Source of the DNA: Erodium maritimum
Taxonomy: Eukaryota; Streptophyta; Magnoliopsida; Geraniales; Geraniaceae
Assembly (NCBI GenBank): GCA_963921825.1
Contig: OY997590.1
Coordinates: forward strand, 38,829,039 to 38,893,038
Direction of reading: 5' to 3'
DNA length: 64,000 nt
Below are positions 17,994 through 60,796 of this stretch, piece by piece (positions within the stretch are counted from its first letter, which is position 1; the number at the start of each line of letters is the position of its first letter). The notes beneath the pieces are model-generated. The model was not told the origin of the DNA and searched no databases. It worked only from the letters and a program-made list of their open reading frames with translations. Made by a program: the position numbers and the translations under genes.

Positions 17994-18189
17994 GACAACC
18001 CCAAACCACACACGCACGGCCAGGACCCCTTTGTTGTCGGGTGGGCCCCCTACCCCGTCTGAACATGCAGACGCGTGTGCTCGTGGAGCCCCGTTTCATG
18101 AAGCGGGCCCCAACCTCAGGTAACCATAATCACAATCACCAGCAAGTTCAACAAACAGCAACAACACAAGTTCAGCACTCCACAAGCAC

Positions 18190-18860
18190 TCATGGCCACC
18201 CAAGACACCAACCGTAAAACACGGACTCAACAACCCCACAGGCACTCACGACCTCCCAAGATACACCAACAGCAACTCACGGGATCAACAACCCCACGGG
18301 CACTCACGACCACTCAAAACCACTAACGGTAACTCACGGGCTCAACAACCCCACAGGCACTCACGGCCTCTCAAAACCACCAACAACTCACGGGCACAAC
18401 AACCCCACGGGCACTTACGGCCTCCCAAGACACACCAACAGTAACTCACAGGCTCAACAACCCCACAGGCACTCACGGCCTCCCAAGACACACCAACAGT
18501 AAAGACACATGTTCAAAAACCCCACGGGCACTCATGGCCACCCAAGACACACCAACAGTAAAGACACCGGTTCAATAACCCCACGGGCACTCATGGCCAC
18601 CCAAGACACCAACAGTAAAGACACGGGTTCAACAACCCCACGGGCACTCATGGCCACCCAAGACACACCAACAATAAACACACGGGTTCAACAACCCCAC
18701 GGGCACTCATGGCCACCCAAGACACACCAACAGTAAAGACACGGGTTCAACAACCCCACGGGCACTCATGGCCTCCCAAGACACCAACAGTAAAACACGG
18801 GCTCTCATGGCCACCCAAGACACAACAGTAAAACACGGGCTCTCATGGCCACCCAGGACA
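18190..18860. repeat. 57-bp tandem array in solo LTR
   Basis: About a dozen variable units of roughly 57 bases (some shorter) carrying CCCCACGGGCACTCATGGCC and CACCAACAGTAAA. The same array recurs at about 29215-29440 and 31265-31690 in the other family members with different copy numbers. All open frames here are repeat shadows. Confidence 0.9.
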
Positions 18861-28369: not shown

Positions 28370-31165
28370 TGTCACGCCCCAATTTCAGCAAACAAAACTC
28401 GGGACACGAACGTTTTGAAACAATAAACCATTTTGAAACCCTTTTTGTAATCCACTTTAAAATAACCATTTGTTCAACAAAATAATATTTACATCTCAAA
28501 ATAAGTCCCAACAATTGGAAAAAAACGTGGTACACGTCACTAGACTCAGAATAACCCAGAAACCCGCTTCAAGCTCTTCAAGCTTTAGAAGCTCACCTAG
28601 TCCAGCCTGCGAACGATACCTGTAGGAAAGGCAGCTAGGGGTGAGCGTTCGCTCACCACCAAAGATAACAGACTGACCATGGCATACTTAGCAGACAAAG
28701 CTGGTGACACCAACAACGACTCAATGACACACACACACGACCAATACTTTCCTCAACCGACTCAACACTCGGACACGTGATGTAGACCCCACACAACAAT
28801 TGACGACCTCTTCCAAAGACACGACAGACAACCACGCAACACCCAAGATCACAAAGGATCGCACACCAAACAAGATCACAAAGGATCGCATACCAGCTGC
28901 TCAGTAACCATATCTGTCTCTCGCCCTTTACCGATCCCAGTCAGGTCAGGCGGTCGACCTGTCGCGCAATTCTCCCGATCCCAGTCGGGAGGCTAACCCA
29001 CAACCTCTCCGCTTCACCCGATCCCAGTCGGGTTGTTAGCCACACCCGCGCGTCCTTCCCCCGATCCCAGTCGGGGAGCTAGCCCACAACCTCTCCGCTT
29101 CTCCCGATCCCAGTCGGGAGGCTAGCTACACCACACAACCTCCACCATCATCAAGTAACCAATCGCAATCACAAACAAAGTTCAACAAACAGTAACGACA
29201 CCAGCCCCAAACTCCACAGGGACTCAAGGCCACCAAGACACCAACAACAAAACACGGGTTCAACAACCCTACGGGCCCTCATGGCCCAAGACACCAACGG
29301 TAAAGTACGGGTTCACAACCCCACGGCACTCGCGGCCACCCAAAATACCAATAATAATAACACGGGCTTTCATGGCCACCCAACTCAACAATAATAACAC
29401 GGGTTCTCATGGCCACCCAAACTCAACAATAATAACAAACAACCTCCGGGCATGGTCATATGCCTCCAGTAATTCTAATCTCACTAAGTTCACTGCTCCT
29501 ACGACACTACTAAGTGTCACATGCTTTTCTAATCATTGCTACGCTCCCGTATCATGCCTTTCTAATATTTGATAACCTAAAAACCCCACGACACCCCGGT
29601 GTCACATGCAATTCTACAGTTAACTTTCCCTAGTTAGGGTCGAGATCCGGCTACTTTTCCCTACCTCGTATAAGTCCTCCAAAAGTGCCCAACTAAGCCT
29701 CGGCGCGATCGCAGTCACTCGCCTAGTTTCCCTTTGCCTCGGTCCGCAGCACGAAGAGAACACAAATTTAAGGCACTTTTAAACTAGTATGAATAAACCG
29801 AAATTCAATAAACTTAACGCCCAAACGTAACCTCGACAATGTCAATCACTCCCAAACTTCCAAATTACTCGACATTGTCGATAAAGGACCCGTAAAGGCC
29901 CGATTCGCACGTCATGGCGAATCTGCCCGGGTTTTGTAAATGCCCTTCCGGGGCTCCAAAAATTCCCGTTTTCGTTTCTACGGTCTTAGAATATTTCAAG
30001 GGTTCCTAGGCACTTGACGGAATCGACTTCCGACTTCCGAGTCAATTAATTAACGTTTTAAAGTTTCTAAAACCCGTTAATTACAACTTTTCCAATCTAA
30101 TTCCAAATTTCGATTCGGTTAAGGATAAATGGTCCGGGGAACGTTTTAAACCACCCGAACACTAAACCCGATCACCCGAGCACGTGGGCCCCACCCGGCC
30201 CACTTGGCCGTGGGCCCCACCCGGCCCACTTGGCCGTGGGCCCTAGGGTTTCAATGGGGGCTCGGCCCCCATGGTTGTGGCTGGTCCCAGCTCCGGCCAG
30301 CCACCCCATGGCCGGCCGGCCACCACCCACGGTGGCCGGAGCTCCTCCCGAGCTTCTGGTCACCGGAAAACGTGCCCCTTCGCCTCCAACACCTCCAAAA
30401 CGTCTCCAAAAATTCCCCCAACCTCAATACACCCTAAACTAATCATTTTTAACCAAACGCTAACATTTGGAAATTATCAAATCGACGATCGGTTTAGTAC
30501 TAACCGTAGAGGAAGACGAGGGGAGTTCGATTCTTGCAACGATGAGACGATCCAATGGTTGAAACTTCGTGAATAGTGGCCAAACCCTAACTTCTTCTAT
30601 CTTTTTCTCTCTTCTCTTCTCTCTCTAAAACTATCTTCCTTTTCTTATTTTTTTCTCTTTCTACATGTGTGGCCGAACACACCCATCCCCCCCTCTCTTG
30701 TCTTGCTTCAAAAATACCTAACCCCACCCCTTTAGTGACAAGTGGCAAGTGGGTCCCCTTTTAAACAAAATATCTTGTAGGTATTTCTGTCAGATTCGCG
30801 AAAATCGGACGTTTCGGGCCCCGAACGAGCACTTTTTCCCAAAAATTACGAAACTTGACGGGCTACAAGGAAACGGCTCAACTAAGACCGCTGCGAAGAC
30901 GGCTAAGCTTTTTGGATCCTAAACGGTCCTCGAATGGACCAAAACGTCGCTCGGTTGACTGTTCCAGCGAAAAGTCAACTTTTCCCAAATTGATCAGAAA
31001 GTTGCCCTGAGTCCCCCGGAACTCACTTTGGTCGATAACGGGGTCAATTTAGGTTAAATATGACCCTCGGGTCAATTTAGGTTAAATTAAGTGTCTGTCT
31101 TAAAATTTTTAAATTTTCCTGTTTTTCGCAGGTTTGACTGGCGTTGACCGGAAGTGGTTATTACA
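28370..31165. mobile_element. Nested solo-LTR-like element inside the outer one
   Basis: Starts TGTCACGCCCCAATTTCAG and ends GGAAGTGGTTATTACA, flanked by TGCGC (28365-28369) and CGCGC (31166-31170), 4 of 5 bases equal. It is 2.80 kb long, of the same family and orientation as its host, whose sequence resumes at 31166 (CGATCACGGGACCCC). It carries a CCCGATCCCAGTCGGG-type array near 28930-29120 instead of the 42-bp array. Confidence 0.85.
29215..29440. repeat. 57-bp-type minisatellite in the nested LTR
   Basis: A shorter, more degraded version of the CACTCATGGCCACCCAA array, with AATAATAACACGGG variants. Confidence 0.7.
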
Positions 31166-31264
31166 CGCGCGATCACGGGACCCCCCTTATTATGAGGCGG
31201 GCCCCCAACCTCAGGTAACCACAATTACAACCACAAGCAAAGTTCAACCGACAACAATAACACA

Positions 31265-31690
31265 GGTTTAACACTTCACAGGCACTCATGGCCACCCAAG
31301 ACACCAACGGTAAAACACGGGTTCAACAACCCCACGGGCACTCATGGCCACCCAAGACACCAACGGTAAAACACGGGTTCAACAACCCCACGGGCACTCA
31401 TGGCCACCCAAGACACCAACAGTAAAATACGGGTTCAACAACCCCACGGGCACTCATGGCCACCCGAGACACACCAACGGTAAAAATACGGGTTTAACAA
31501 CCCCACGGGCACTCATGGCCACCCAAGACACAAACAGTAGAGTACGGGCTCTCATGGCCACCCAAGACACCAACAGTAAAATACGGCTCTCATGGCCACC
31601 CAAGACACAACAGTAAAGTACGGGCTCTCATGGCCACCCAAGACACAAACAGTAAAGTACGGGCTCTCATGGCCACCCAAGACACAAACT
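31265..31690. repeat. 57-bp minisatellite in the outer LTR
   Basis: About eight to nine units with CCCCACGGGCACTCATGGCC and CACCAACGGTAAAACACGGG; the last units are shortened. Open frames here are repeat shadows. Confidence 0.85.
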
Positions 31691-34422
31691 AAACAATCAA
31701 TCTCCGGGCATAACCAAATGCCTCCAGTAATACTAATATCGAAAGTTCACTGCTCCTACGACACTACTAAGTGTCACATGCCTTTCTATTGTTCGATACG
31801 TTCCCGTATCATACGACACCACCCGGTGTCGCCTGCCTTTCTATTGTTCGATAAACTTACTTAACCCACGACACCCAAGTGTCACATGCATTTCTACTGT
31901 TAACTTTCCCTAGTCAGGGCTGAGATCCGGCTACTTTTCCCTACCTTGTATGCTTTCTCCAAAAGCACACAAACAAGCTCCGGCGTGATCTCGATCACTC
32001 GCCTAGCTTTCCCTTCCCTCTGTCGGTGGCACGATCTAATAAGAACACAATTTTAAACACTTTTAAGCTTGCAGGCATAAACCGAATTTTAATAAACCTG
32101 ACGCCCAAAAGTAACCCCGACAATGTCGATCACTCCCAAGCTTCCCAATTACTCGACATTGTCGATAATGGACCCGGAAAGGCCCGTTTCGCCCGACATG
32201 GCGAATCTGCTCGGGTTTTGAAAACGTCCTTCCGGGGCTCCGAAAATTCCCGTCTTCGTTTCTACGGTCTTAGAATAATTCAAGGGTTCCTATGCACTCG
32301 ACGGAATCGAATTCCGACTTCCGAGTAATTTAATTCGCGTTTAAAGTTTGTAAACCCGTCAATTACAACTTTCACAATTTAATTCCAAATTTCGATCCGG
32401 GTGTGGATTAATTACTTGGGGAACGTTCTAAACCACCCGAACACGAAACCCGAATACCCGACCATGTGGGCCCCACCCGACCCCCTTTGGCCGTGGGTGG
32501 CTAGGGCCGGTCCACCATGGTGGTGGCCGGTCCTAGCTCCGGCTAGCCACCTTACAAGGCCGGCCAGCCACCCTACACGGTGGCCGGAGCTCCCCCGAGC
32601 CTCCGTTCACCGGAAAACGTCCCAAACTCGCTCCAAAAGGTCTCCAACGAGCCCCACACCTCAACACCACCATAAACTACTAGTTTCAAACCAAACCCTA
32701 ACTTTCAAACTTAACAAATCGAAAAACGGTTAGATGCTCACCGTAGAGAATGACGGTGTGAGATTTATTCTTCTATCCTTGAGACGATCCAACGGTTTGA
32801 TGATCGAGAAACGTCACAAATCCCCCAAGCCTCTCCTCTTTTTCTCTCCTTCTTCTCTCTTCTTTTCTCTCTCTAAAAACCCTATTTTCTCCTTTTTTTT
32901 AACTACATGGCCGAACCCCCCTCACATGTAGTCTTCTTGTTTTGCCCAATAAACCTAACACCACCACATTGGTGACATGTGACCAAGTGCGTCCCACACC
33001 AATCAGATTCACGAAATTCGGACGTTTCGGGCCCCGAACGGGCACTTTTTCCAAGAAATTACGAAACTTCACGGGCTACAAGGAAACGCTCAACTAAGAT
33101 CGCTATGATGACAGCTAAGCTTTTTGGATCCAAAACGGACCTCGAATGGACCAAAACGTCGCTCAGTTGACTTTTCCTGCGAAAAGTCAACATTTTCCAA
33201 ATTGGTCAGAAAGTTGCCCTGAATCCCCCGGAACTCACTTTGGTCGATATTGGGGTCAACTTAAGTCCGGTGTGACCCTCGAGGTCAAATTTAGGTTCAT
33301 TTAAGTGTCTGTCTACATTTTTTAAATTTTCCTGTTTTTCGCAGATTTGACTGGCGTTGACCGGAAGTGGTTATTACATTCCTCATGTGAGTCACCAGAA
33401 CGGATTAACTTGCTTAAATCAAATATCGTATCACTATCAGACAAGAACTTTGCACTGAGGAAGCAAGTGAGGGAGCTAATTGAGAAGTTAAGGCTAGCCG
33501 AACAAGGATCAGATAATGCACAGAAGCAGTTCATGGCATTGGGTACGCAGCACAAAGCGGGGCATTTGGCACCGTCACGGGTATAAGAACTGACCCAACT
33601 GTGATTCCTGATGCATCTGTCAACCCAAGGCTGGCAAATCTCTTGGAGGAAGTTGCTATTAGGAAAGAGCTAATAGTTGCACTTGTGAATTCTAATGTAC
33701 GAAGCATGTTGGAGGTTTGGTTTATAAGCATAAAAAAAGTTGGTATAACCAATTATTTGGTTGTAGCATTAGATAATCATATTGCATAGTTCTGCAAATC
33801 GAATGATGTACCTGTATATGAAAGAGATCCAGATGTCAACATTGGTAATGTCTCTGGATTGAAGTTCCGCGTGTTGAGAGAGTTTTTGCAGCTGGGCTAT
33901 AGAGTTCTTCTATCTGATGTTGATATAGTGTACTTGCAAGACCCATTTGACCATCTTTATCGGGATTCAGATGTGGAGTCCATGACAGATGGCCATGATA
34001 ACATCACTGCTTATGGTTATGATGATGTCTTTGATGAACCTTCCATGGGCTGGGCTCGATATGCTCATACAATGAGAATATGGGTGTTCAACTCTGGTTT
34101 CTTCTACATTAGGCCAACACTTGCTTCAATCGATCTCCAGGATCGAGATCTTTCTCGGCAGCTAAAGTCATGGGACCAAGCAGTTTTTAATGGGTATGAT
34201 GCTTCCAAGAGAACCATGGACTTGTATCTCTTGATGAACAACAAGGTCCTGTTCAAGAAGGTGAGGAAAGATGATAAACTCAAAAGGTTGAAGCCGGTAA
34301 TCATTCACATAAATTACCATCCAGATAAACTTCCAAGAATGCAGGCAGTCGTAGAATTCTACATTGATGGCAAGCAGGATGCGTTGGATCATTTTCCTGA
34401 TGGTTCTGAATGGTACAAGTAG

Positions 34423-38316: not shown

Positions 38317-38861
38317 AGGTAATATATTAATACTTTCAAATATTTGTTTGTCTTCTTTGATTGGATCAAATATTCAGTTTTGATAAAATAAGGTGATAAA
38401 ACTAGTGTTTCGTGTTGATAAAAATCACTCATATATAAAAAAAATTAAAAAATCAAACCGAAAAAAAGTTTTGTGCTTCAAAACATATTCATCACTTATC
38501 TTTTTTTTATAAGCGAGTTGAAGATTTCATTATACTGGAGAGCGGTACAATGAAAAGCAGAAACGTGGCCAAAGTGACCTGTCTGAGAAAACAAACACTG
38601 TAAAAGAAAACATAAACCAAACTATGAAGTTTGAAAATACGAACTAACAACAGACTATAAGCCTGTAAAAAACACTGAAGCCAATGATTAAACCAAGCAA
38701 GAACTCGGGCTTCTTTGCCAAACCACAAAGGTTGCCTCTGAAAGTAATAAACCTGCTGATCGAAGAAGACTGAAGGATAGGTACTGCAACTTCAAAAACG
38801 ATGCTTCAACAGTGTCAATAATATTAGAGTACACCACATCATTTCTCCTCAACCATAAAAC

Positions 38862-39507
38862 TCATAAGGAAGTATAAGCAACCCGAAGCCATTTAAGCCA
38901 AAGTCTCCTAGGCCATAAGCCCTCCCAACTGTATAAGACCAAAGTAGTATTTGCAGGTTGAACATACACAACTCCCCACCACATGTAAACCTTTGTCCAG
39001 AACGTCCATGTAAAACTACAATGAAGAAAGATGTGATCCGAATCTTCAAACACAATTTTGCAGGACTTACAAAGCATTCAGAAAGGGATATACGGCAACC
39101 ACGACCTTAAAAAAACCATACACGGGATCGCCTGATTAACAATCAGCCAAACTAGCATAGCATATTTAGGAGGCCAGCCCTTAATCCACAGAAAACCGGA
39201 CCAAGGTGGTGCAGGGTGACTTGGAGCTTCCAAGAGAGAATAAACAGTGCCAGTGGTAAAATAAGAGGCCTTTCACCAGACCAAAGAATCAGCCGTCCCT
39301 TCACGAATGGGAACACCACTTAGGAGATGTAATAGAAACCGAGCCTCTATATCCTCCAAAACAAAGCAATCTCGATGAAAAAAAAGTCCACATGCCTTGA
39401 GCACAAATCTCACTAATCAATTTTTTCTTGGAAGTTGATATGGAATAGAGTCTCAGGAATTGATCTTTTAGAGATTGATCATCGAGCCATACATCTTCCC
39501 AAAACAA
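38862..39507 (-). pseudogene. LINE ORF2 C-terminus (zf-RVT)
   Basis: Degraded C-terminal region of a plant LINE reverse transcriptase. FWEDVWLDDQSLKDQFLRLY at 39507-39430 precedes the zinc-knuckle-like stretch MLCKSCKIVFEDSDHIFLHC near 39077-39018, with WTFWTKVYMWW after it. Stops and frame changes occur in between. Confidence 0.75.
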
Positions 39508-39833
39508 GCTCTATTTCCATTGCCAACCTTCCAATGCAAGCTCTGATTATCAAATAAGCAGGAAAAAGACGGGTTAGATGCCAAGTTCACAATATGGGAG
39601 AAAACAGAGGACAAATTGGGTTTGTCCACAACTGTTGAAATAATTTGTAACTGGGGAAGCCAGTACAGGAATAAGAGCTCCAAAACTCGCGGATTAACTC
39701 AGCAAAATTCTTTAAATCCAACCACACGTTGATGAACTTCAAAGGTTTAGGGCCCTAGTTCACAACCTTGGATTCGAGTAAAATAGGACGATGATCAGAT
39801 AAGCCCTTTTCCAAACCTCTTTGACTGATATTT

Positions 39834-40463
39834 TCAAAGGCTAATAAGAAGTCCGGAGAAACCAAAAAACCAGTCCAAACGAGTGGCTTTAGAACTCGGT
39901 CTGTACCACGTGAATTTTCCACCTTCCTGTCTCAAATCAGTAAGACCAAGAGCTAAGATAAAGTTCAAGAAACAAGTGTTGTCTTGCTCTGAAAAGACAC
40001 TGTTCCTACGTTCCTCTACCACCAGAACAGAGTTAAAATCACCACATACACACAAAACATCAGTAAAACGCAAGCTGTATGTACTGATCTCATCCCACAG
40101 AGCAGCCCTATCAGCTTCATTGGTTGGTGCATAGACATTGATCAATACAAAAGGGGTCTGAGCTTCTCCCCACGACCCTATCCATATTAAGGAATGCTTA
40201 TAAGGAATGCTTTCCACACAATGAAAAACAGAAGGTCTCCACACTGACAATAAACCCCCCGAAGCCCCTTCAGCAGGAGAAAAAGCATGTTCCCAATTTC
40301 CAACAAAACCACAGCTACGCAGATAAGCAGGAGAAAATAATGCAACCTTTGTTTCTTGCAGCAACACAAAATCAGGGTGCTCAATCCTAATTGTGTTGCT
40401 AATACTCCGCCTGTTCTGGACGGAGTTAGTTCCTCTCACATTCCATGAGAGGAACTTCATCAC
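39834..40463 (-). pseudogene. LINE ORF2 endonuclease (APE-type) domain
   Basis: The open frame of 209 codons starts MMKFLSWNVRGTNSVQNRRS, with the APE-type motifs LSWNVRG, FVLLQETK, FVLINVYAPT, VLCVCGDFNSVL and TRLDWFF. This endonuclease nicks the target to prime reverse transcription. The usual SDH motif that closes the domain and everything up to the reverse transcriptase palm are missing, so it ends in unrelated codons. Confidence 0.85.
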
Positions 40464-41103
40464 TTCAATTCAGGGTTAGAGCAAGAGGATTGGAGTTCAA
40501 GGCCTCCAAATCCTCATCGTCACATTCATCTTCATATAAATCATCTTCGTCTGCTTCCAGATCAAGTCGTTCCGGTATCTCTAGATCAAGGTTATTGTAT
40601 TGTTCTAAAACAGAGACATCAACTTTTAAAGCCTTAAAACTAACTTGTTTAACATAATCTCAATCTCCTTGTCGGGCTTGACGTTCTGTGCTTCGAGGAC
40701 TGAGATGTGACAAAACCGGAGCCTGATAAGAAACATCAGGTTTCACTCGTTGCACACATTTTGATGAGGGTCAGGAAATTGAAGAGGATACGTGCGCTGC
40801 ACGAGAGATTTTATCTGCAACAAAATTTGCCAAAACTATCTAGGCTTCGGGCTCACGCGGATCAATTGGAGGCGAAGAAGAAACATGCCCTTTATCCTCA
40901 TTATTCATAATTGAATTAGAAGAGTTTGAGATGGAATTGGAAACCTTGGTTGGAGAAAAATCAGCAGGATCAGCATGTTTGCATTCCCATTCCTTATCTG
41001 AGGAGGGGTCCGGTAATGTGATGCTCGGAACGATCGACTCCGGCACTTCCCTCAGATCAATTCCAGTAATACAAACAAGGAAAATAGACTTCCCTAACTG
41101 AAA

Positions 41104-42143
41104 TTACAAGACTAGGGAGGAGATTTTTGAGTTTCTATGTATCAATAAAAAGGATTTATCAAACGCAGTAGACTCAAGAGATGTATCAACAAGATGATGC
41201 AAAACTGATCCCAATTTCTTGCCAACCGAAATAACAGAAGCTTCTGTTCTTCCTTGAAATGGTATTCCTTCCACCATTACCCACTGTATAAAACCTCCCA
41301 GCGTAACTAAAGCCCCTGATTTACTTAAAACTTCAAACCATGGTTTCAATTTCTTCCAGTTATCCTTCTCAAGTTCATCTCTCAGAGTAGGATTGATGAC
41401 TGTGAGTAGAAAAACTCTGTTGCTAAAGGAGCGTAGAACGATGTCCTCTAAACCCATGGAGATCAGAAGAGAGGTATAATGAGAAGTAAACCAGTTACTA
41501 TGTTCCAGAACGAGAATACCTGAGAGAGCCATCTCCCGAGACCCTTCGATCGTAGTTCCTTGAGCTAAAATTTCTACATTCTTTTGAACTTTTGGAATCC
41601 AATGTTGACGAGGAATTGGTTTATTCCGATTAACTTTGTGTGGAGCAGGACGATCGTAAGCCAAAGCTACCAATAATTTGTATCCATCATGAACTGAACC
41701 ATTTAAAGCTGCAATGGCTTCAGCCACGCACCGTCACTCCCCGGAGGCAAGTTACAGACTAAGAGTTTAACGGTGATCGGGGGAGTAGCAACAGGAGTCT
41801 GAAACTCCTCCGGGTTCTGAATTTTTGGTGGAAGAACAGAACCCTCCAGACGTTGAACAAAAGACGAAACTCGTCCCCTATGAAATGGTCGTAGTTGTGA
41901 ATCCAAAGGCTTTCCAGTTGATGATTCGCCCTCCTTAGATGATGAGACCTGACTAAGATCATGAGAGCTTCCGCTGGGAACGACGACCACAGATTTCGGT
42001 CTCGAGCTATGCTTCACCAAATCGGATCGCGTCGGTGCCCTCCTTTTTCTCGCATCCCTCAACATGTTGATCTTCCGCCTCGAAATATGAATCCACAGAA
42101 GAGAATGATTCAAGATCATAAGATGTTTCGCTGTGGAAATCAA
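41104..42143 (-). pseudogene. LINE ORF1 with RRM remnant and DUF4283-like domain
   Basis: The first open part (42143-41703) is basic and Ser-rich, and ends in the first strand of an RRM (VKLLVCNLPPGSDGAWL). The second (41727-41104) begins with the last helix and strand of an RRM (AEAIAALNGSVHDGYKLLVA), then reads NWFTSHYTSLLISMGLEDIV, NRVFLLTVINPTLRDELEKD and a DUF4283-like core. The middle of the RRM, about 40 residues in intact relatives, is absent and the frame changes there. RRM-bearing ORF1 proteins are known from some plant L1 clades; they bind the element RNA. Confidence 0.75.
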
Positions 42144-42453
42144 ATAGCTTGGCCGGAGAATCGATCGATCAAATGAGGAATACGGCCAACCCTAAAATCG
42201 GATGAAGGGGAATGTTTCTTTGTGTTAAGATTCAAACTTTTTAGCTTGAAGATTATCATACATGTTTACAATAGAGACAAGATGGCTCGATCCCTAGACG
42301 GTCCGATTCGGCAGTACAAGATGGTGTTTGTGGGCCACTCCCTCGGATCCGGCGCTGCTCACGGTGGTCGTGGTCAATCACATGGACCGATTGGAGGCAT
42401 TCCGCGAGACATGGTGGTCGGATCAGTGCTAACAGCTATTCATCACTTATCTT

Positions 42454-43821: not shown

Positions 43822-45915
43822 TTTTTTAGTAAAAAAAAACTTTTATTATTTTTAAACAGAGCTAATACACGTTTGAGGGTCCTGACAGGACAAACAACAA
43901 ATTCTGAGACTAAGTAAACGTATATGACGTTCTAAAGAGACGCCAGTAAGGCTAACTAAGACATAAACTAGAACCCAAATAAAAACTAAGAAAGACTGAC
44001 GAAAACTACTCAAGGTAGGGCCTGTAAACCGTTGGGTCCCCCGATGGTGACACTTTTCTTCTGATGTAAAACCGAACATGTGGTCGTTAGTGGTGAGGGA
44101 AGGGCAAGCTTGTCTCAGGGATCCCTTCCCAGCGTCCCTGAAGCATCCAGGTGTAGCCATTGGGCCTGGCGAGGCTGTTTACCAGCCCTCGAATGGTCTT
44201 CCCGAGGTTCTCCTGCTGAACCCCTCTTCATTCTCAGCATTCCTATGGATGCCTCTACCCGACTGGCCCAGCATGGACCCCTTACCTTTGGCTCATAAAC
44301 ACACCCGTCAGGTGCAGTGTTATGGGACAAGATAGGGTCCCGTCCCCAAAGTGGGGTAGTCTTATGTGCAGTGTCATGGGTCAGTGGAACAAAGCCTGGT
44401 GGAACGCGCTCTAGTTTCTTCCAGTCCGTGGCATAGACCCTGTCCTTCCTCTCCTTCTGATAGTGCAGTAGGAACTTATCGAAGCTATGAATTCCTGGCA
44501 TCTCACGATCGCAACCCGAAGGATTATGACCAATACACCCATAATTCCCACACAAGGTTGGGAGTTTGGTATAGGTAAGGGTACAGGCAAGCGTGTCTTT
44601 GAACTCCGGGAAACGGAGACGCACATTTCGATAGAGAGGACGATCCGGGGAGTGCCAATAGCGCACCCGAACCGTCCCATGCCAACATTGCCCATACTCG
44701 TCACATGGGACATCCACTATGGTCCCTAAAGCAGCTCCAATGTTCTCCCCTGTAGTCTTGGTACTGACACAAGGAGGGAGGCCATGTGCATTAACCCATA
44801 GCTGAAGTCGATCCAAGGCCGGGAGGTCCTGCACGAATGGGTAAGTCTCTGCCAGCATCAACGGGTGACCCTCAAAGCACCATGGTTCGTGCAGGCGCAC
44901 CCAGACTCAGTCCTCATTCCGAGCGAAATAGAAACAGAAAACCCCCAGAGCAATGTCCTTGATCACCAGGCCTATTGCCGAAGCACCTCATGCCTCGGTG
45001 AGGATAAAAAACGATGTGTCCTTGCGGGGAAAGTGTTCAGCTAGGAGGCGGTCAATCATTCCGAATTGTTGACGGGACAACGCAGCCGGGTCGAGGATTG
45101 CATCGCTGGCGATATCCTCCAACGGTTCCTCATATCCCAAAAAGAAACCCGAGGGACTCTCTTGGAGTGCCCTAACCTGGAAGTCAGGCTCCGTCGACCC
45201 GAGCAACCGAGGCGGTGTCCGAGGAGGCGGAGGTGGTGGCAAGATCCCTTCTCGTGCTGCAGATTTTGGAAGGACGGTCTCAGACCGGTGGAGAAGAAAG
45301 CGGGGTGCTGGGATGGTAGGGATGAAGGGGATGCAGTCCTTATTCGGAAGGATGTCAAGCCCAATTACGACTGTCCATGTTGCATCCTTAGTCAATACCT
45401 GATGCCTCACCGAAACCCTAGCTGGAGATATATTAGTTGGAGGGGAGGTTTCGGCCACCCGTTTGGGAAGGAGACCGCGACACGACTTTGGTTGAGGTTG
45501 GGGCGGAGTGTGTGCTCCCGGATCGAAGGTGACCAGTGCCATAGACAGCGTGGTGGATGGGATCAACGGGTTGCTCAACAATTGCGGTTACATGAAAGGA
45601 GCCACTGGTATGGTTTGTTTCTTCGTCCTCCGCCGCGGCCTGAAAGGCCTCACGAGGTCGTGAGAGGGACATGGAGGAAGGACACCCGTCACCACCGTGA
45701 AGGACCGCTCAGACGGTGAGGTGACCCGAGCGGCAGGTGGGACAAATGCAAGAGGTAGGTCTGCGGTAGGCATCAAGAACGTCGAAGGCACCAATGGGTG
45801 ATCTTCCTTGGGACTTGAGAGGGTGCATCAATCGAGGATGACAAAGATCCGGTAACACATTGAGCTAGGGTTTAGGGGTGCTCTCGACACGAAGAGAGAT
45901 GATTAATCTGTTTTT
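43822..45915 (-). mobile_element. ORF1-only LINE (copy C), 12-bp TSD
   Basis: A 2.1-kb minus-strand element between ACTTGTGTTGTT (43810-43821) and ACTTGTGTTGTT (45916-45927). A tail-like T/A tract lies at 43822-43840. It contains one ORF1 frame (45794-44115), and then 290 bases of 3' UTR with GACGAAAACTAC and GGTCCTGACAGGACAAAC. There is no endonuclease or reverse transcriptase. The 3' UTR is shared with the plus-strand fragment at 46240-47322. Confidence 0.7.
44115..45794 (-). pseudogene. LINE ORF1 of copy C, one frame with three stops
   Basis: A single frame of about 560 codons is interrupted by a TAA near 45586, a TGA near 44987 and a TGA near 44907, but shows no frame change. Pro-rich N-terminal region; DUF4283-like region around 45080-44700 (LLAEHFPRKDTSFFILTEA, then LHEPWCFEGHPLMLAETY); then LWVNAHGLPPCVSTKTTGEN and a knuckle LPTLCGNYGCIGHNPSGCDR. 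In that knuckle the second metal ligand is Tyr instead of Cys (C-x2-Y-x4-H-x4-C). The preserved frame despite stops suggests a fairly recent loss, or mobility supplied in trans. Confidence 0.7.
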
Positions 45916-45927: not shown

Positions 45928-46239
45928 GTTGTAATTTATATAAAAATGGCTTTATCCTTATAATTTATAATGTAAAATATTAAATAAAGCACAAAAAAAG
46001 TTTAAATATTTATATTCCTTAATTTTATTTTTTAATACTGTGTAAAAAGTAATTGAAATATATAAATTTGTCTAGTAAAAAAAATATAGATACTTGGATA
46101 TTTTATTATTATCATTATTATTTCTAAATTTTAAAATATTAAGAAAAAATAATCACTTTAATACAAATCCATACAAAATATAACAAATAAAACAAGCTCA
46201 CACAAGATTATGGATAAAAATATATCGCAAATTACGACT
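45928..46239. other. AT-rich spacer
   Basis: Very AT-rich, with no open frames worth naming. Confidence 0.5.
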
Positions 46240-47322
46240 CTCTCTGCTATGGTTTGAGACCTCTCAACCCTAGCCTTCCTCTATGATGCCGCCGCCTTCC
46301 TCCATGAAGCCGCCGCCATGTTCTAGGGCGCCACCGGGAGTTCGAGCATCCATTGCTCTTGTCCTGGAAGCTCTAGCTGGATCTCGAGCACCGACGACTG
46401 CACAACAACCCGTTGTTATAGCAGTCATCGTGCACCCTGCAAGCGAAGGAAAAGTTCTCCCTCGTGCCACTGGTCTCGGTTCCGGCCCCTCTCTGCGATC
46501 CCGTTCTAGGGTTCCAGCCTCTCTCCGCCGCGTCTCACCCCGATGTAGGTTCGGTCCCCTCTCTCGGCGTTTGTCCGGTCTCCTCTCCCGACATAGGCTC
46601 GGTATCCCTCCTCCGTCACCTCTACAACCACCACCGTCGTCACTGTATCCGCCTCATTGGCTTCCACCGAGGCCTTTCTCTTGATCTCTACCCCAGTTCT
46701 GGGGTAAGATGATCACCTGGTTGCCTGCTTGTCCAATTTGGATCCTCGCCCATGACCTTACTCTGGGTTTCCTGCTGGGCGGAGCGGGGGTTGCAGGACA
46801 TCAGTGTCCGTATCGGGTCTCTCCTCCGTCTCTACAAGCGCCGGTGAAGCCGTCATCAGTATCCCCTCCTCCTTGGCCTCCTCCTCGATCTCTGATCGAT
46901 TGAGTCTGATTTACTTTATTGTTTATGTTATGTTTTGCAGGGTTACTATTCAAAGAGCGACGATTCAGGACTTTTCCCCACATGGTCAAGGAATTTCACC
47001 AAGAGGAATCCCTGATTCACATCTACCATCGTCACACTGACGAACACAGGTTCGGTATTACATCAGCAAAAGTGTTTCGCCTTTGGGGGACCCAATGGTA
47101 TACATGCCCTACTTTGAGCGGTGTTCGTCAGTCTCGCCTAACTACCAATGCTATTCAGTACCCTGTAATTTCATTAACTTTTGTCTTAGTTAGCCTTAAT
47201 GGCGGTCCGTTCAAAAACGTCCTACACGTTTACGCTGTTACAGGGTTATTATGTTTGTCCCGTCAGGGACTTCAAACATGTACTAGCTCTTTTTAAATGA
47301 ATAAAAGTTGCCCTTACTCAAA
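46240..47322 (+). mobile_element. LINE fragment sharing the copy C 3' UTR
   Basis: From about 47040 to 47322 the plus strand matches the 3' UTR of copy C in inverted orientation (TTCGTCAGTCT, GTCTTAGTTAGCCTTA.TGGCG, CCCGTCAGGGACTTCAAAC). It ends near a short A-rich tract (ACTCAAAAAATAA). The 5' part (46283-46900) is CT-rich and Pro-coding, like a LINE leader or ORF1 start. No DUF4283 core is left. No target duplication was found. Confidence 0.55.
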
Positions 47323-47439
47323 AAATAACTCATACACTTTTTATATGATTAAAATAAATACCTCAATAATGTTGTTTACTATCATTCCACTAATCGAAAT
47401 ACCTAACTGATAATTATAAAAAAAAATTTCCCTTAGGGT

Positions 47440-50203: not shown

Positions 50204-50208
50204 CCCCT

Positions 50209-51085
50209 TGTTAGTCTTAGTGCCCGTAGTTCAATCATAAATGTCCAAATGTATATATCATCATTAGCAATAAGATTAAAGCGGCTTTCTATTACTTATG
50301 TGTTGGAGTAATATATCGATGTGATTTCTGATCTATGCCCACCATGCGAATAGAACCATAGATCGAGATGGATCACACTCGATGGGTCCCTAGTCAATAA
50401 AGCTTCACTAGAAGCGACTAGTATGAAAGATGGCTCTTCATGGCTTACGTTCTGTTAGTCATTGGAATGGGATTCCGGAGTCTGATCATAGATATCATGT
50501 GGGACATGATATTGGACGACCCGCCCTGAATATGTGCCATAGATTGAGTCATTAACATATTCAGTGTCGTAGCTTGTCATGTATCCTTAGACCAAGGAGT
50601 CTTTGTGATCACTATGCAGTCAACAACTAAGTTTGACCTGAGCCTAACGTTGTCCGTAACAGGGCTTCCATAACGGCCAGGATTGGCTTGGGGACGGGTT
50701 GCATGAGTGACACGAAAGACGGCTAAGGGATTTATCCCTCATACTGAGGTATGGGAAAGATATCGGTTCTCGGCCGCTTGATCGAGAGTGACTGAAAGAA
50801 TAGCATGGCCATGCACATGATACTAGGTATCATATATTCAGTCATCTCACATATCAAGGAACAGTGATTGAGAATAATAAGGATGACGGCTCTATGCCTT
50901 ATCTCAATCAGGATATCGGAGATAAAAGGATAATGACAGGGACGACGGAAAGGTTAGAATCGATTGGTTCGATTCGCTATGTAGTGTCAGGCAATACTAA
51001 AGTCTCGTTAGTTGCCACTTATATAGGATCAAGTAAAATGGGATTTTACGTTGATCTATCGACATGCATAGACCTAAGGGTCACA
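50209..51085 (+). repeat. Left terminal repeat of the copia element
   Basis: Matches the first 877 bases of the right LTR (55673-56549) with no difference noticed. The small open frames at 50864 and 56328 are the same LTR sequence read twice. Confidence 0.85.
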
Positions 51086-51649
51086 TTGGATGTAATTGGA
51101 GGCATCATTACATTTGGAATGTAGTTGATGTGCTCATCGCATCTAGGATGTGCCAAAAGTTTAAAACACAACCGGACAAGTAAAAACGGGTCATGTCCGA
51201 TACCTCCCAATTATCAACACCTTACTACCTCCCCGTCCTATGGGTGTCGTGCGCATTAGCGGAGCATCCATGGGAAAGCGGGGTAGTAGGTTTGGACGAC
51301 ATGTGTAGGTGTCGTGCGCATTAGCGGAGCACCCACATAGTGACGGGCCATAGTTGAAAATTGGTGGACCCGACTACGATTCTCAGCCTGAGGTTGAGCT
51401 AGGGTATTAGATAGGGTAAGCCGTGTACATGAGTACATACCCTAGCCAAGAGTCACATTGGATGTGATTGGATGGAGTCCTACCTACATAGCTCGATTAA
51501 GTAGTGAGCATTAGTTCAGCTTAATCGGGTGAATCAAGGATCTTGGTTTTAGGTTCTAAAGGTTTAGAATCAATTGGTTGGTGTTTGAACTTGATCTTCA
51601 TAAAATTTATTCAGTTTACTGATTATATTTTGTTTGTCGTGTAGATCAA

Positions 51650-54600
51650 ATGGCAAGTACTTCAGCGAACAATAGTAGTTTGTCACTAAAAACCATTCTT
51701 GATAGGATCAAGCTAAGTGGGACAAACTACTTGGACTGGGACAGAAACTTGAGGATAGTCCTCAAATTCGAGCGCAAAGAATATGTCCTAGACCAGGCTA
51801 TCCCTGAGGAGCCAGCTAATAATGCCATTAGGGCCGTTAAGGATGCATACCAAAAGCACCTTAGCGATTCTATAGATGTGGCATGTATTATGCTGGGCTG
51901 CATGGAGTCTGATCTCCAAGACCAGTTCATGGAGTACTCTGATGACCCCTATACTATGATGGGGATCATAAAGGGTATGTTCAAGGAAAGGGCACGTATC
52001 GTGAGATACAATGTCCTTAATGAACTTCTCTCCTGCAAAATGTCAGCAGGAGTCTCCGTGGGTCCTCATGTCCTAAAGATGAAGGGGCATCTCGAACATC
52101 TTAATCGACTGGGTCTTAAGATAGAGAACGAGATGGCAGCGGATGTGGTTCTGCGTTCCCTTCCTCGTTCATATGCTACGTTCGTCATGAACTATCATAT
52201 GCACGATATGGACAAGACCATTTCAGAGTTGCATGGAATGTTGGTAACTGCTGAAAAGAACGTCAAGGATCAGGGATCCAAGGATGTTCTGATGGTCAGA
52301 CAGGGAAACAGTTTCAAGAATAAGGGAACTGTTAGTGGTAAGGGCAAGGCCCCTATGCACTTGGCAGGAAAGATGAGGCATCCGAAGCGTCCTAACCCTC
52401 CTAGGACTGGGGAGTCCTCAAGGAAGGGGAAGGATGTCGAGAATGTCTGCTTCTACTGTCAACAGCCTGGTCACTGGAAGAAAGATTGCAGGAAGTTTCT
52501 GGATGATCTGAAGAAGGGCGGTGGGACTGTGCCTTCATCAGGTATTTTCTTTATAGAGCTAAATCTCACTACTTCCAAAGATTCATGGGTATTGGATACC
52601 GGGGCTGAATCTCACATTTGTACTAATGTGCAGTGGCTGGAAGGTAGGAGAAGCTTGAAGAAGGACGAGGTGGACCTCAGAGTGGGCAACAAGACTAGAG
52701 TTGTGGCGACTGCTGTAGGATCCATAAGTCTTCTTTTGCCAAGTGGGCTAGTTTTTGTTTTGAACAATGTATATTGTGTACCTACTTTCAGTAGGAATAT
52801 TGTATCTATTTCTTTGTTGGACAAGGAAGGATACAATTTTGATGTTGGAAATGGGATTTTCAATATTTTATGCTAGCGCCAAAATGGTTGGAGGATTGTA
52901 CATATTGGATATGGATAACAATGCCTCAAGCTCTATATATAATGTAAATACCAAGAGGTCTAAGTCCAATGATTTAGACCAAACTCTTTTATGGCATTGT
53001 CGTTTAGGCCACATAAACGAGAAACGCATATCAACACTTCACAAGTGTGGACTTCTTAGTCCATTCGAATTTCATTCGATTGATAGATGCGAATCTTGTT
53101 TGATGGGAAAACTGACTAAAGCGCCCTTCATCGGTCGCGGTGAAAGGGCGGGTGACTTATTGGGGCTAATACACTCGGATGTGTGTGGACCAATGAGCAC
53201 ACTTGCCAGGAGGGGTTTTAGCTACTTTATCACATTTACTGACGACTTCAGTAGATATGGTTATGTCTATTTGATGAGACATAAGTCTGAAGCTTTTGAT
53301 AAATTCAAAGAGTTTAAGACGGAAGTAGAAAACCAGCTCGGGAAAAGTATTAAAGCACTTCGATCAGATCGAGGTGGAGAATACTTGACCACAGAGTTTT
53401 TAGATCATCTAGCAGAAAGTGGGATCCTTTCGGAATGGACTCCTCCCGGAACACCACAATTGAATGGTGTGTCCGAACGGAGAAATCGGACTTTATTGGA
53501 TATGGTCCGGTCCATGATTAGTGGGACTGATCTCCCAATCTCTTTCTGGGGTTATGCTCTGGAGACGGCCGCATTCATTTTGAATCGGGCTCCGACGAAG
53601 GCTGTGGAAGGGACACCATTTGAGAAATGGCGCGGGAGAAAGCCCGTTTTGTCCTTCCTAAAGATTTGGGGTTGCGAGACTTATGTGAAACGTTTAGTTC
53701 CGACTAAGCTCGAACCAAGATCTGATAAATGCACCTTCGTTGGGTATCCCAAAGAAACAATGGGGTACTACTTCTACAAACCCAGCGAGAACACGGTGTT
53801 CGTCGCTCGGGGTGGGGTCTTTATGGAAAGGGAGTTTATTTCCAAAGACGTCAGTGGGAGGGTTGTACATCTAGAAGAAATTCAGGGTGGTACAGATCCA
53901 ACTGATCCACTGGACAACCCTGTAGAAGAGCCTGAGATGGTCGTAGAGCAAGGACCAGTTCCTGCAACAATTCCAGAAGGTCCAAGGCGATCTGAAAGGG
54001 TTAGTCGTCCACCTCCGAGATATGGTTACTTTGTGTCTGGAGGTGACGGTGAGCTTGTGGTGGATCACGATGATCCAGCTACATTTCAGGAAGCTGTGGA
54101 CGGACCCGACTCTGAGTTATGGCTGGGAGCCATGAGGGAGGAAATGCAATCCATGTCGGACAACCAAGTCTGGGAACTGGTTGATCCCATCGGTGGTGTA
54201 AGAACCATCGGATGCAAATGGATCTTCAAGGTGAAGATGGACATGGAAGGCAACCCTCAGACCTACAAAGCCCGACTGGTGGCGAAAGGTTATAGGCAGA
54301 TCCAAGGGATTGACTATGAGGAAACCTTTTCCCCAGTGGCTATGGTCAAATCTATCCGAATTCTTCTTGCCATAGCTGCATATCACGATTACGAGATATG
54401 GCAAATGGATGTCAAAACCGCTTTCCTAAACGGAAATTTGTCGGAGGACGTTTATATGTCTCAACCCGAAGGTTTTGTCGATCCGAAGAATAAGGGAAAG
54501 ATTTGTAAGTTGTTGAAATCCATTTATGGATTGAAACAAGCTTCTCGGAGTTGGAACCTTCGTTTTGATGAAGCTGTAATTGGATTTGGCTTTATCAAGA

Positions 54601-55658
54601 ATGAAGATGAACCTTGCGTTTACAAGAAGGCAAATGGGGGTATGATTACCTTTCTGGTGTTGTATGTCGATGACATACTACTCATTGGAAACGACATCCC
54701 AACCTTGCACGAGACTAAAGCTTGGTTAGGGAAGTGTTTCTCAATGAAGGACTTAGGCGATGCTGCTTATATCTTAGGGATTAAGATATAGAGAGATCGC
54801 ACCAAGAGGGTCTTGGGTTTAAGTCAAAGCACCTATGTGAACAAGGTATTGAGTAGGTTCTCAATGCTTGATTCCAAGAAAGGACTCTTACCCGCACGTC
54901 ATGGCGTTCATCTCAGCAAGACTCAGTGTCCTAAGACACCTGATGAGCTGAAAAGAATGATGCGAATCCCATACGCTTCGGCGGTAGGATCGATCATGTA
55001 TTCCATGATATGCACGAGACCGGATGTCTCATATGCCTTGAGTTGTACCAGCAGACATCAGTCTAACCCTGGTGAGGAACACTGGATAGCGGTCAAAGCG
55101 ATTCTCAAATATTTGAGAAGAACTAAGGACGCGTTTCTAGTGTACGGGGGAAAAGATGATTCTGAACTAGTTGTTAATGGATATGTAGACGCTAGTTTCC
55201 AGACAGATCCAGATGACTTTAGAAGTCAGTCAGGATATGTGTTCACGCTGAATGGCGGAGCTTTCAGCTGGAAGAGCGTGAAGCAAGACACCGTCGCTGA
55301 CTCCACGACAGAGGCCGAGTACATAGCGGCTGCAGAGGCGGCCAAGGAGGCTGTGTGGATTAGGAAGTTCACGGCAGGGTTGGGTGTAATCAAAAACCCA
55401 TCCAGCCCGGTGAACCTATTTTGCGACAACACAGGGGCTATTGCGCAAGCTAAAGAGCCCAGATCGCATAACAAATCCAAACATGTACTGCGGCGATATC
55501 ACCTCATCAGAGAGATACTGAACCGAGGCGATGTGAAGATCACCTATATTGCAACTGATGATAACATAGCCGACCCGTTGACTAAGGCACTATCGTTGCC
55601 TAAACATGAGAGGCATGTAAGGTCAATGGGAATAGATTGGAGTTTAGATTGGAACTAG
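51650..55658 (+). pseudogene. Copia gag-pol region
   Basis: Domain order is that of Ty1/copia. Gag starts MASTSANNSSLSLKTILDRI at 51650. A CCHC knuckle follows (CFYCQQPGHWKKDC, about 52448-52490), then protease (WVLDTGAESHIC near 52590) and the GAG-pre-integrase region (LLWHCRLGHINEKRI, near 52990). Integrase spans about 53150-53700 (HSDVCGPM, ALRSDRGGEYLTTEF, GVSERRNRTLLDMVR). Reverse transcriptase spans about 54150-54780 (GCKWIFKVKMDMEGNPQTYK, MDVKTAFLNG, VLYVDDILLIGND). RNase H is at about 55180-55600 (NGYVDASFQTD, DSTTEAEYIAA, LFCDNTGAIAQAKEP). The frame is not fully open; about two breaks. The protein would otherwise be close to full copia length. Confidence 0.9.
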
Positions 55659-55672
55659 GGCAAGTGGGAGAT

Positions 55673-57348
55673 TGTTAGTCTTAGTGCCCGTAGTTCAATC
55701 ATAAATGTCCAAATGTATATATCATCATTAGCAATAAGATTAAAGCGGCTTTCTATTACTTATGTGTTGGAGTAATATATCGATGTGATTTCTGATCTAT
55801 GCCCACCATGCGAATAGAACCATAGATCGAGATGGATCACACTCGATGGGTCCCTAGTCAATAAAGCTTCACTAGAAGCGACTAGTATGAAAGATGGCTC
55901 TTCATGGCTTACGTTCTGTTAGTCATTGGAATGGGATTCCGGAGTCTGATCATAGATATCATGTGGGACATGATATTGGACGACCCGCCCTGAATATGTG
56001 CCATAGATTGAGTCATTAACATATTCAGTGTCGTAGCTTGTCATGTATCCTTAGACCAAGGAGTCTTTGTGATCACTATGCAGTCAACAACTAAGTTTGA
56101 CCTGAGCCTAACGTTGTCCGTAACAGGGCTTCCATAACGGCCAGGATTGGCTTGGGGACGGGTTGCATGAGTGACACGAAAGACGGCTAAGGGATTTATC
56201 CCTCATACTGAGGTATGGGAAAGATATCGGTTCTCGGCCGCTTGATCGAGAGTGACTGAAAGAATAGCATGGCCATGCACATGATACTAGGTATCATATA
56301 TTCAGTCATCTCACATATCAAGGAACAGTGATTGAGAATAATAAGGATGACGGCTCTATGCCTTATCTCAATCAGGATATCGGAGATAAAAGGATAATGA
56401 CAGGGACGACGGAAAGGTTAGAATCGATTGGTTCGATTCGCTATGTAGTGTCAGGCAATACTAAAGTCTCGTTAGTTGCCACTTATATAGGATCAAGTAA
56501 AATGGGATTTTACGTTGATCTATCGACATGCATAGACCTAAGGGTCACACCGAAGGATGAAACTCATTGACACATTTATGGAGAATGGCCAAAAGAGAGT
56601 TGTCTCGGGACATGACCAAAACTGGGTTTTGGGTCATGTGCCCGTAAGTGAATAGGACATTACGGATCAAGACAAGGCTTGGAGTCTTGGGATTGATCGC
56701 GTCGGATAATGTTGGACATTTCCGGTATGGAAGGCTTGGAGGCGATGAGCACGTCACGGGACCTCGTTGGGAATGGCCATGGGCCATGTTCCAAGAGGCC
56801 CATGAAAGGCCCATGCAACCAAGGCCCATGGAACTAATTAATCAAGTCTTGATTAATTAGTACTAAGTAAGCAAGACAAGGATTAAGGTGTTGGTGATTC
56901 ACCACCTAACCCATCTTGTCTTGCCATACTTAGCACCATGCTTGTCTTACTTCACACCATGCTTCACACCTTACTTGTCCTTGATGGTTGTTGATGGTTT
57001 AAGTCATCTTTTTCCTACAACAAATCACAAGACAAGAATAGAAACACAACTTCTCTCCCTCTCACACTACAATTTCGAGTTTGGCACTTTTCCCCCCTCT
57101 TGTTGTGTTCTTGAGTCATCTAAAGAAGAACTACGTGGCTTTGATTCCATTTGGATACGTAGGCGTCTTGGAGACTCAAGCCGATCATCGTTTCTTTGGT
57201 GTTCTCTTCCTTTTCTTGAACTAGTTGGTAAGGAAACATCCATATTGTTTATTCTCTTGTGTATCTAATATTTGGTAGTGTTCTATGACATGGTCTCGAG
57301 TTATTTCCGCTGCAAGTATGTGTTCATACCCTCCATCGAGACCCAACA
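55673..57348 (+). repeat. Right LTR of the copia element
   Basis: Begins TGTTAGTC directly after the polypurine tract and ends CCAACA before the CCCCT duplication. The last third contains GGCCCATG-rich repeats near 56770-56830 and a leader-like end with TTATTTCCGCTGCAAG. Confidence 0.75.
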
Positions 57349-58349: not shown

Positions 58350-58365
58350 GTATCATATGTTTGAT

Positions 58366-60780
58366 GATTATGTAGCCAAGCGCAGAGCCATAGTCTAGGG
58401 TTTTTTCGCGATTCTCTTCATCTGCAGCAGTCGTCTCCGGTTTTTGGATGTGAATATGTCGTCGGAACTATGCAGCGCTGGCTGGGAGGCAGGTAAGGGA
58501 AGGGGAGGTACTAGGATGACGGGGAGTCCCGGTGGGGATCCGGTGTCCGTGGAGGAGGACACGAGGACGTTCATTCCGACGGAGAACCTGTCGTCGAGGG
58601 GAGAGGATTTTCAACATATGGTGTTCTCAGCGCAGGTCGAGGGGGAGAGGAGTACACACCAAGGGGACCGAGATTGCAGGGGACGACGAGGACCAACGCC
58701 AGACGAGTCCAGGAGGTGGGACCGTGACCGAGGAAGGGGAGAGGAGGTCCGGCAAGGGTGGTCGGTGTGGGGTCTGGGAACGAAGCGACAAATTCGGTGG
58801 AGGATTCGATGGGGTCGTTGAGGGAGGGGATAGAGCTGATCCCGATTGTCGTCTCGTCGGATACGGGAACTCAGGCATCCGAACCGAGACACGGGGCGCC
58901 GGAGACGCCGGAGGACGTGGCGTGGCGGCGAAATAAGGGGAAGGAGTCGATGGTTGATGATGCTAGGGTTTTGTTTGGGAGGCCGGGAGCGAAAACGGGG
59001 GCTCGAGAGGTGGGCCTGCTCGCTAATGCACATAGGGGGTGGAGAACCGGGCCGGGTGGGCCTCAGGATCTGGGCTGGCAACCTCGAGCGGGGACGGGCC
59101 CAGGAGACCGAGAACGGAGGCCCAAAGTGGGCTGGACTCGGGGAGACTCGAACGACATAGCCCGTTGGGCGGCTAGGTACGGGGTTGGGTCAAGACAGGA
59201 TCTGCGACTAGCAGCCGGGCAGGGGTCTGGACCGGTTTGTGACCCGGCTCAAGCGGGCCAGCAGGATCCTGGGCATGGTTTCAACCTGTTTGGGAGCCGG
59301 GGGTGCGATTGGCGTACCTAGGGGGAACAGGTAGGAGATTTGGGTTCCCAGATGGGTTCAATGAGGATCAAGGAGGTCGTGGTGCCGGTTCAGGAGGTTA
59401 CAGGCTGGGGGAATCAATACCGTTTCACGATAGCAGCTAAGGTCTTGACAACCAGAAAGATTTTCTGGAAGTCAGTGGTAGCTAAGATGGAGGATGTCTG
59501 GGCATGAAGGTAGATGCTAAGCCGTTGGAGGGGGGGGTCTAGTCGCTCTCTTCTTTCGGAAAGCGAAGGAGAGGGAGCGAGTCCTGATGGGGGAACCTTG
59601 GTCTTTCTGGGACTCCTTTGTCTTGTTCACAGACCTGCGGGCACACATGCAGGTACGAGACTTAGAGTTTCATCACTTCTCGGTTTGGGCGAGGGTGTCG
59701 AACTTGCCAGTGGGTACATGGACGAGAGACGTGGGGTTTCGAGTGGGAAACACGTTGGGGGTCTGTCAGGGGGTGGATGTGGATAAGGAGGGGCTATGCT
59801 GGGGAGATTTCATGAAGGTCCAGATCAGGGCGGATATCAGAGTTCATCTGCAAAGTCAAATGTGGTTCCCTCTATCGGTATCTCAGGTACGGAATCAGTT
59901 ATTTATTTCTTATGAGCACCTCCCCGAGCACTGTTTTGGGTGCTATTGTGCGGGACATCTATTTCCGGTCTGTCCGGTAGTGGGTAAGGTACGGGGACCG
60001 TCCCTGAAAGCGCCGACAGACCCGAGATTGGCTCTGGAGAAGGCGAAACATGGGAAAGGAACCCCGAGAACAAATTGGACATATATGGGAGGTATGTGAA
60101 AAGGGGTGGCCAATCCGGCTGGACCAGGGACGCCAGTCCGACATCAGGAAAATGAGATGTATGGGGGGCAGGCAGAGATGGGTACCGAGGTTCCCGTAGG
60201 TTGGCTGCCAAGGGATCCCTCGCCGTCGTTATCAGGGAAGAAAAGGGCGGAGAGGGAAGAGGACCCTGAGGAAGAGAAAGGATCATCGACGTCTGATGGG
60301 GCGTCACAGGTAGCGGCGGGGGCTCCAAGCACCCCCGCCTCCAGGAATGAGTGCCTGGGGGTCCAGGGAGGGATTGGTCGACTGTATTACCTCCCTGGCA
60401 GATTGGTGGCATTGGTACTGCCCACAGTCGACAATATGCTCCCCTACCAGTCGGGGGTCAGCAATCCCGCGTTCAGGAGCCCTACAAGTATCAGTCAAGG
60501 GAGGACGACGCACGCTGACTTACCGGGGGAGTTGTCAGTCCACCAGTATTAACCCTTCACTTGGTTGGCTCGACTAGTGCCATTTGGTTGGAGCATGCTT
60601 GTCTTCGGATGCTACCGCAGATTTCCCCTTCAACCGCCCCTAGTCCTAGAGCAATATTTACTTTCATGCTTTTGCATTAAGATAGTTACTTGGTTTAACG
60701 TTTGTAAGATGAGCATAGAAATGTGTTCATTATTTTATTTTAAATTCCAGTAATAATATTACCGGTTCTTCTAAAAAAAA
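58366..60780 (+). mobile_element. ORF1-only LINE (copy B), perfect 16-bp TSD and A-tail
   Basis: A 2.4-kb element flanked by GTATCATATGTTTGAT at 58350-58365 and 60781-60796, ending in an A8 tail (60773-60780). It begins with a short leader (TAGTCTAGGGTTTTTTCGCG), carries a degraded ORF1 (58456-60552) and then 228 bases of 3' UTR. No endonuclease or reverse transcriptase sequence lies in it. Since both ends are defined, the lack of ORF2 is a property of the inserted copy, not of later truncation at the ends. Related to copy A at 1863-4275. Confidence 0.88.
58456..60552 (+). pseudogene. LINE ORF1 of copy B (DUF4283-like + CCHC knuckle)
   Basis: RNA-binding ORF1 protein. It starts at the ATG at 58456 (MSSELCSAGWEAGKGRG). 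The N-terminal part is Arg/Gly-rich and passes through at least two frame changes (open pieces 58456-58821 and 58758-59321). The DUF4283-like core begins MGSMRIKEVVVPVQEVTG-like near 59351, changes frame near 59510, and is well kept at 59587-60099 (EPWSFWDSFVLFTDLRAHMQ, WARVSNLPVGTWTRDVGF, GDFMKVQIRADIRVHLQ). The knuckle CFGCYCAGHLFPVC fits C-x2-C-x4-H-x4-C with all four ligands. The C-terminal piece (60106-60552) has EVPVGWLPRDPSPSLSGKK, shared with copy A. Roughly three to four frame changes; dead now. Confidence 0.75.
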
Positions 60781-60796
60781 GTATCATATGTTTGAT

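Follow-up and report, generated by a model that had tools for sequence, protein, structure and literature searches.

Can a LINE lineage in plants live on with ORF1 as its only open reading frame, borrowing its enzymes from other elements? The question is raised by a 2.4-kb insertion at positions 58366-60780 of the window, the whole 64-kb stretch of plant DNA analyzed here. ORF1-only LINEs offer a test of whether the ORF1 protein of a LINE serves chiefly the RNA that encodes it, since only in that case would selection be expected to retain ORF1 in an element that borrows everything else. In mammals, HAL1 (half-L1) elements are described as non-autonomous L1 derivatives of several origins that encode only ORF1p (PMC5753468). 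In the guinea pig, HAL1 is reported to have kept its ORF1 coding capacity for ~29-44 Myr, which was read as ORF1p acting in cis and ORF2p in trans (PMC3627910). A plant case with another type of ORF1 would be an independent replicate of HAL1.

Boundaries and content of the insertion and its relative

The insertion at 58366-60780 (+ strand), here element B, was made with a target-site duplication (TSD) and an A-tail. The 5' copy of the 16-bp duplication (58350-58365) is identical to the 3' copy (60781-60796), neither being assigned a strand, and the tail is a run of eight A (60773-60780, + strand). Sixteen bases is the longest word common to the two flanks, a length reached in 0/5000 first-order shuffles. 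In a scan of the whole 64-kb window for duplications of at least 12 bases on either side of an A-run (six or more A), three places were found, in B and in elements C and D described below, all of LINE type; 60 shuffles gave a mean of 0.58 and at most 3. At 16 bases or more, two places were observed (B and D), compared with a mean of 0.02 and a maximum of 1 in the 60 shuffles.

The coding content of B, of its relative A and of element C was searched with Pfam models in read-through translations of the three sense frames of each, with matches considered at E up to 1. B has a DUF4283 domain at 59530-59826 (+ strand; PF14111, 47.5 bits in a read-through frame, cut-off 27.2 bits; coordinates converted from protein positions), followed at 59881-59976 (+ strand) by a CCHC zinc knuckle that scores 15.5 bits with PF14392, below the cut-off of 27, and has a readable CX2CX4HX4C pattern. 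One other Pfam match in B is sub-threshold and belongs to an unrelated model. In none of the three elements did the sense frames, read through stops, give an Exo_endo_phos or RVT match with E up to 1; for endonuclease (EN) and reverse transcriptase (RT), 10 of the 27 ORFs in the window were scanned, together with the five elements A-E. The preliminary description of B, as an insertion with a 16-bp TSD and an A8 tail that holds a DUF4283/CCHC ORF1 and neither enzyme, is thus upheld on each of these points. The ORF1 of B is not intact. By frame reading it has 22 nt inserted compared with A, two or more additional in-frame stops, and frameshifts; past the insert, the frame is open over 59521-60552 except for one TGA at 60097-60099.

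Element A (about 4290-1832, - strand; 5' end approximate) has the same layout. BLASTN aligns 59311-60683 of B with 3284-1924 of A at 73% identity, and a global alignment runs on past 60683 to the A-tail. The same layout and matching 3' region that had been noted for this copy are borne out, as A and B remain colinear from around DUF4283 as far as the 3' end; its own 3' end, previously placed at 1863, has to be moved to near 1832, where it aligns with the end of B up to the A-tail. The DUF4283 domain of A lies at 2791-3090 (- strand; PF14111, 43.2 bits; coordinates converted), and its CCHC knuckle matches the model at 21.7 bits, below the cut-off of 27, with CX2CX4HX4C again readable. The longest word common to the flanks of A is 10 bases, which was reached in 770/5000 shuffles and is not significant as a duplication. 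Frame reading finds three in-frame stops and small indels in the ORF1 of A, which, like that of B, is not intact.

Other LINE-type elements in the window

Element C (43822-45915, - strand) is a further ORF1-only insertion, with a 12-bp TSD (AACAACACAAGT) and an A-tail. The duplication is weak, in that 33/5000 shuffled flanks reach 12 bases and a shuffled window holds up to 3 such places. The DUF4283 domain of C (44709-45002, - strand; PF14111, 36.7 bits in a read-through frame; coordinates converted) is 25% identical to that of B over 131 residues, and C is therefore assigned to a separate lineage; its CCHC knuckle is sub-threshold, with the second Cys apparently replaced by Tyr. A second DUF4283 lineage with the same anatomy as A and B is thus present in the window; the preliminary description names neither C nor element E, described next, as an ORF1-only or related element. 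All DUF4283 elements found there (A, B and C; 3/3, in two lineages) are without ORF2, one window being a small sample.

The last 0.3 kb of C recurs at 71% identity on another body, at 47035-47309 (+ strand) in element E (46190-47328, + strand; ends approximate). Outside this 3' region, E shows only a weak translated match to the 5' part of C (27% over 59 residues). No Pfam match and no TSD were found in E, which is possibly a SINE-like or deleted derivative. Near the 3' end of C and E there is a small GTCC/GGAC hairpin, which is suggestive only, the consensus folds being drawn from two sequences each. A profile of the A/B 3' region gave no match to that of C/E, and the reverse search was likewise negative.

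The one LINE found in the window with pieces of ORF2 is element D (38503-42436, - strand), which has a perfect 17-bp TSD and another type of ORF1. Pfam identifies an endonuclease (43.5 bits) and a zf-RVT domain (43.8 bits) in D, with no RVT match and no match for its ORF1, and D has apparently undergone an internal deletion of the reverse transcriptase.

Selection on ORF1 and the absence of ORF2

The N-terminal parts of A and B can hardly be aligned beyond short matches, that in the AWRRxxGKG region among them, and their 5' ends have TCTAGGGTT...GCGATTCT in common, a score equalled in 27/2000 shuffles. The N-terminal portion of mammalian ORF1p is likewise described as rapidly evolving (PMC5940361). 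Selection was assessed on the ORF1 core, 249 aligned codons of A versus B, with Jukes-Cantor correction and bootstrap 95% intervals. A and B differ at 40, 26 and 116 first, second and third codon positions, respectively, and 202 of the 249 amino acids are identical. This gives a pN of 0.105 (0.077-0.135), a pS of 0.694 (0.605-0.784) and a pN/pS of 0.15 (0.109-0.200); the corrected values are dN 0.113, dS 1.95 and dN/dS 0.058, a rough figure given that dS is near saturation. The two wrong phases of the core give 1.6 and 2.7. Fourfold sites are identical at 42/94 (random expectation 0.28), which indicates that the A and B lineages are old.

The dN/dS check that had been proposed for ORF1, run here on A versus B, thus yields about 0.06, and the substitution pattern shows that ORF1 was under strong purifying selection while the two copies diverged. 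Since low dN/dS is combined with near-saturated synonymous sites, the bulk of the A/B divergence accrued during selection on the protein. Purifying selection of this kind is what a HAL1-type ORF1 would have. Given the ORF2-less layout of both A and B, the simplest reading is that the selected ancestors were ORF1-only too.

On balance, we consider it probable that A and B, both dead copies, belong to a single non-autonomous, trans-mobilized lineage that has ORF1 alone and arose from a LINE of the plant L1 clade. The preliminary description had preferred a mobilized family to a single deletion; the common layout, the selection on ORF1 and the presence of C speak for this, and the word family would here refer to two dead copies in one window, not to a family in the genome-wide sense. 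It also counts against the favored explanation that divergence within a host gene, or within complete LINEs, would leave the same signature of purifying selection on ORF1.

The host-gene version, in which A and B are retropseudogenes, each a single LINE-made processed copy of a domesticated DUF4283 gene or of one of two paralogues, seems to us rather unlikely. An mRNA copy would have the same anatomy (5' UTR, ORF, 3' UTR, A-tail and TSD), and low dN/dS with near-saturated dS fits old paralogues. DUF4283 is listed as enriched among pseudogenes in 3/5 plant genomes and among parental loci in 1/5 (PMC7935947, Table 1), and the L1-derived gene L1TD1 provides a mammalian precedent for domestication (PMC4161310). 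However, a barely alignable N-terminal part beside a well-conserved remainder is more in keeping with an ORF1 than with a host gene under constraint, and C repeats the same anatomy in a second DUF4283 lineage within the same 64 kb, with its 3' region also found on the body of E. Neither observation is decisive.

Whether A and B lost ORF2 together or separately can be judged from the alignment across the end of ORF1. Identity per 100-column window is 66-80% in most of the ORF1 core and 74-83% over 60281-60580, with a dip to 53-57% before the latter, near 60081-60230 in the ORF1 tail. The probable ORF1 stop is a TGA that overlaps an ATG (GGAATGAGT in both elements; frame 2 in A, frame 3 in B). 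Across the end of ORF1 the alignment needs just two gaps of one base, and a block of 245 gap-free columns (60355-60599) starts just 3' of the probable stop, which argues that the absence of ORF2 is common to A and B. As read from the two sequences, the lineage has one ORF1-to-3'-end arrangement without ORF2, and ORF2 was probably already missing from the common source. The same ORF1-to-3' junction, the mark looked for in a HAL1-type lineage, thus occurs in more than one copy, A and B being the only two examined.

We regard as unlikely that A and B instead come from full LINEs by independent losses, each through its own deletion or through RNA splicing at the same sites before insertion. Recurrent splicing could yield the same junction twice, and D, which has endonuclease and zf-RVT matches and no RT match, indicates that internal loss occurs in LINEs of this window; separate deletions, however, would rarely agree as closely as two one-base gaps followed by 245 gap-free columns.

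The segment after the probable stop (60347-60545 in B, + strand) is identical to A in 160/199 aligned columns (80%) and has weak codon periodicity, with 7, 13 and 19 differences at first, second and third positions in the ORF1 frame; in 60355-60599, one of four blocks tested, the corresponding counts are 12, 19 and 30 (p 0.017). It may equally well be a C-terminal extension of ORF1 or a 3' UTR element. A claim that it is a 3' RNA element, based on 160/199 compared with 42/94 at fourfold sites, was dropped because the codon periodicity fits an ORF1 extension equally, and a remnant of the start of ORF2, suspected from a motif, is not claimed. The A/B alignments place the 3' UTR of B at 60546-60772 (+ strand). 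Identity is 90/138 (65%) over 60546-60683 and 47/90 columns (52%) over 60684-60780, the last 97 bases of B; the terminal motif that resembles that of A is weak, with an equal score in 56/2000 shuffles. It is very improbable that the two elements stem from LINE RNAs polyadenylated too early, just past the start of ORF2: a stop/ATG overlap such as GGAATGAGT might be expected at an ORF1/ORF2 junction, but the 430 bases past the ATG have no endonuclease match in sense frames and hold stops or frameshifts in both A and B, and the two elements end at matching places.

Proposed mobilization in trans and relation to known systems

If A and B are copies of a trans-mobilized ORF1-only lineage, such an element would be transcribed from its own 5' end, and its RNA would be translated into a DUF4283/CCHC protein that binds the RNA encoding it. 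With endonuclease and reverse transcriptase apparently missing from the common source, insertion would have needed an enzyme in trans. This could be supplied by an autonomous LINE; drawn to the element RNA by its poly(A) and perhaps also by its 3' region, the enzyme would use target-primed reverse transcription to copy that RNA at a nicked target. Within the window, no autonomous LINE sharing the A/B 3' end was found. L1s of flowering plants are described as mostly poly(A)-ended and regarded as largely relaxed, also copying mRNAs, though some lineages are stringent (PMC3747384); A and B may therefore have moved without a special 3' signal. Selection would maintain ORF1 because the elements copied most efficiently would be those making an ORF1 protein of their own. 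That ORF1 was retained in this way suggests a protein acting on the RNA that encodes it, which is also the argument made for HAL1 (PMC3627910). That plants hold long-lived ORF1-only LINE lineages, with selection on their own DUF4283/CCHC protein and the enzyme ORF provided by separate elements as a split LINE system, is an idea we offer tentatively, as possible if doubtful.

A, B and C resemble HAL1 in having ORF1 and no EN or RT (Pfam, E up to 1, sense frames). The insertion hallmarks of HAL1, TSD and A-tail, are clear in B and weaker in C, and the duplication of A is not significant. The three elements also differ from an autonomous plant L1-clade LINE, as they have no ORF2 with EN and RT. 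The ORF1 of A and B is of the plant DUF4283/CCHC type, whereas mammalian ORF1p is of the coiled-coil type, and no homology between the two was seen at the sequence level: the Pfam match is to DUF4283, and the A3 profile had no match among PDB chains at E up to 1. A structure model of the ORF1 core of A was discarded (mean pLDDT 35). The origin of the A/B lineage would be independent of HAL1.

Among described plant elements, the poplar LINE Celine resembles B in its DUF4283 ORF1, poly(A) tail and TSDs, the latter given as 10-30 bp (PMC11288735). Its representative differs in having both ORFs; the non-autonomous copies described there are either disrupted or truncated at the 5' end, and a family limited to ORF1 does not appear in that description (PMC11288735). 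In plant LINE/SINE pairs, such as those of maize ZmSINE2/3 and tobacco TS, the SINE is reported to be trans-mobilized by L1-clade LINEs via a common 3' end or poly(A) (PMC3747384). The 3' region common to E and C recalls these pairs, whereas A, B and C carry ORF1. SINEs, by contrast, are short and non-coding. No ORF1-only LINE family in plants was seen among the matches listed from the open-access PMC literature. The A/B lineage most likely works like HAL1 with another type of ORF1, and we provisionally conclude that a plant counterpart of HAL1 has not been described. Solitary DUF4283 genes are common in plant annotations, and ORF1-only LINEs might account for some of them.

Outside the five elements A-E, no further fragments of them were found in the window at E up to 0.001, and Rfam gave 0 matches on the window at the gathering threshold. 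Searches of non-plant collections, which have no bearing on copy number, found no relatives of the ORF1 protein of A in viral contigs or plasmids, of that of C in viral contigs, or of that of B in bacterial and archaeal genomes. The window also contains two direct repeats (50208-51085 and 55672-56549; 878 bp each, 100% identical) that flank long ORFs at 51623-55658, which we take to resemble a Copia-type polyprotein. The region 50208-56549 is probably an LTR retrotransposon, and its identical LTRs indicate that it probably inserted recently. Self-comparison further reveals large diverged repeats at 17198-20556 and 27619-33377, with arrays near the 18-kb and 31-kb positions.
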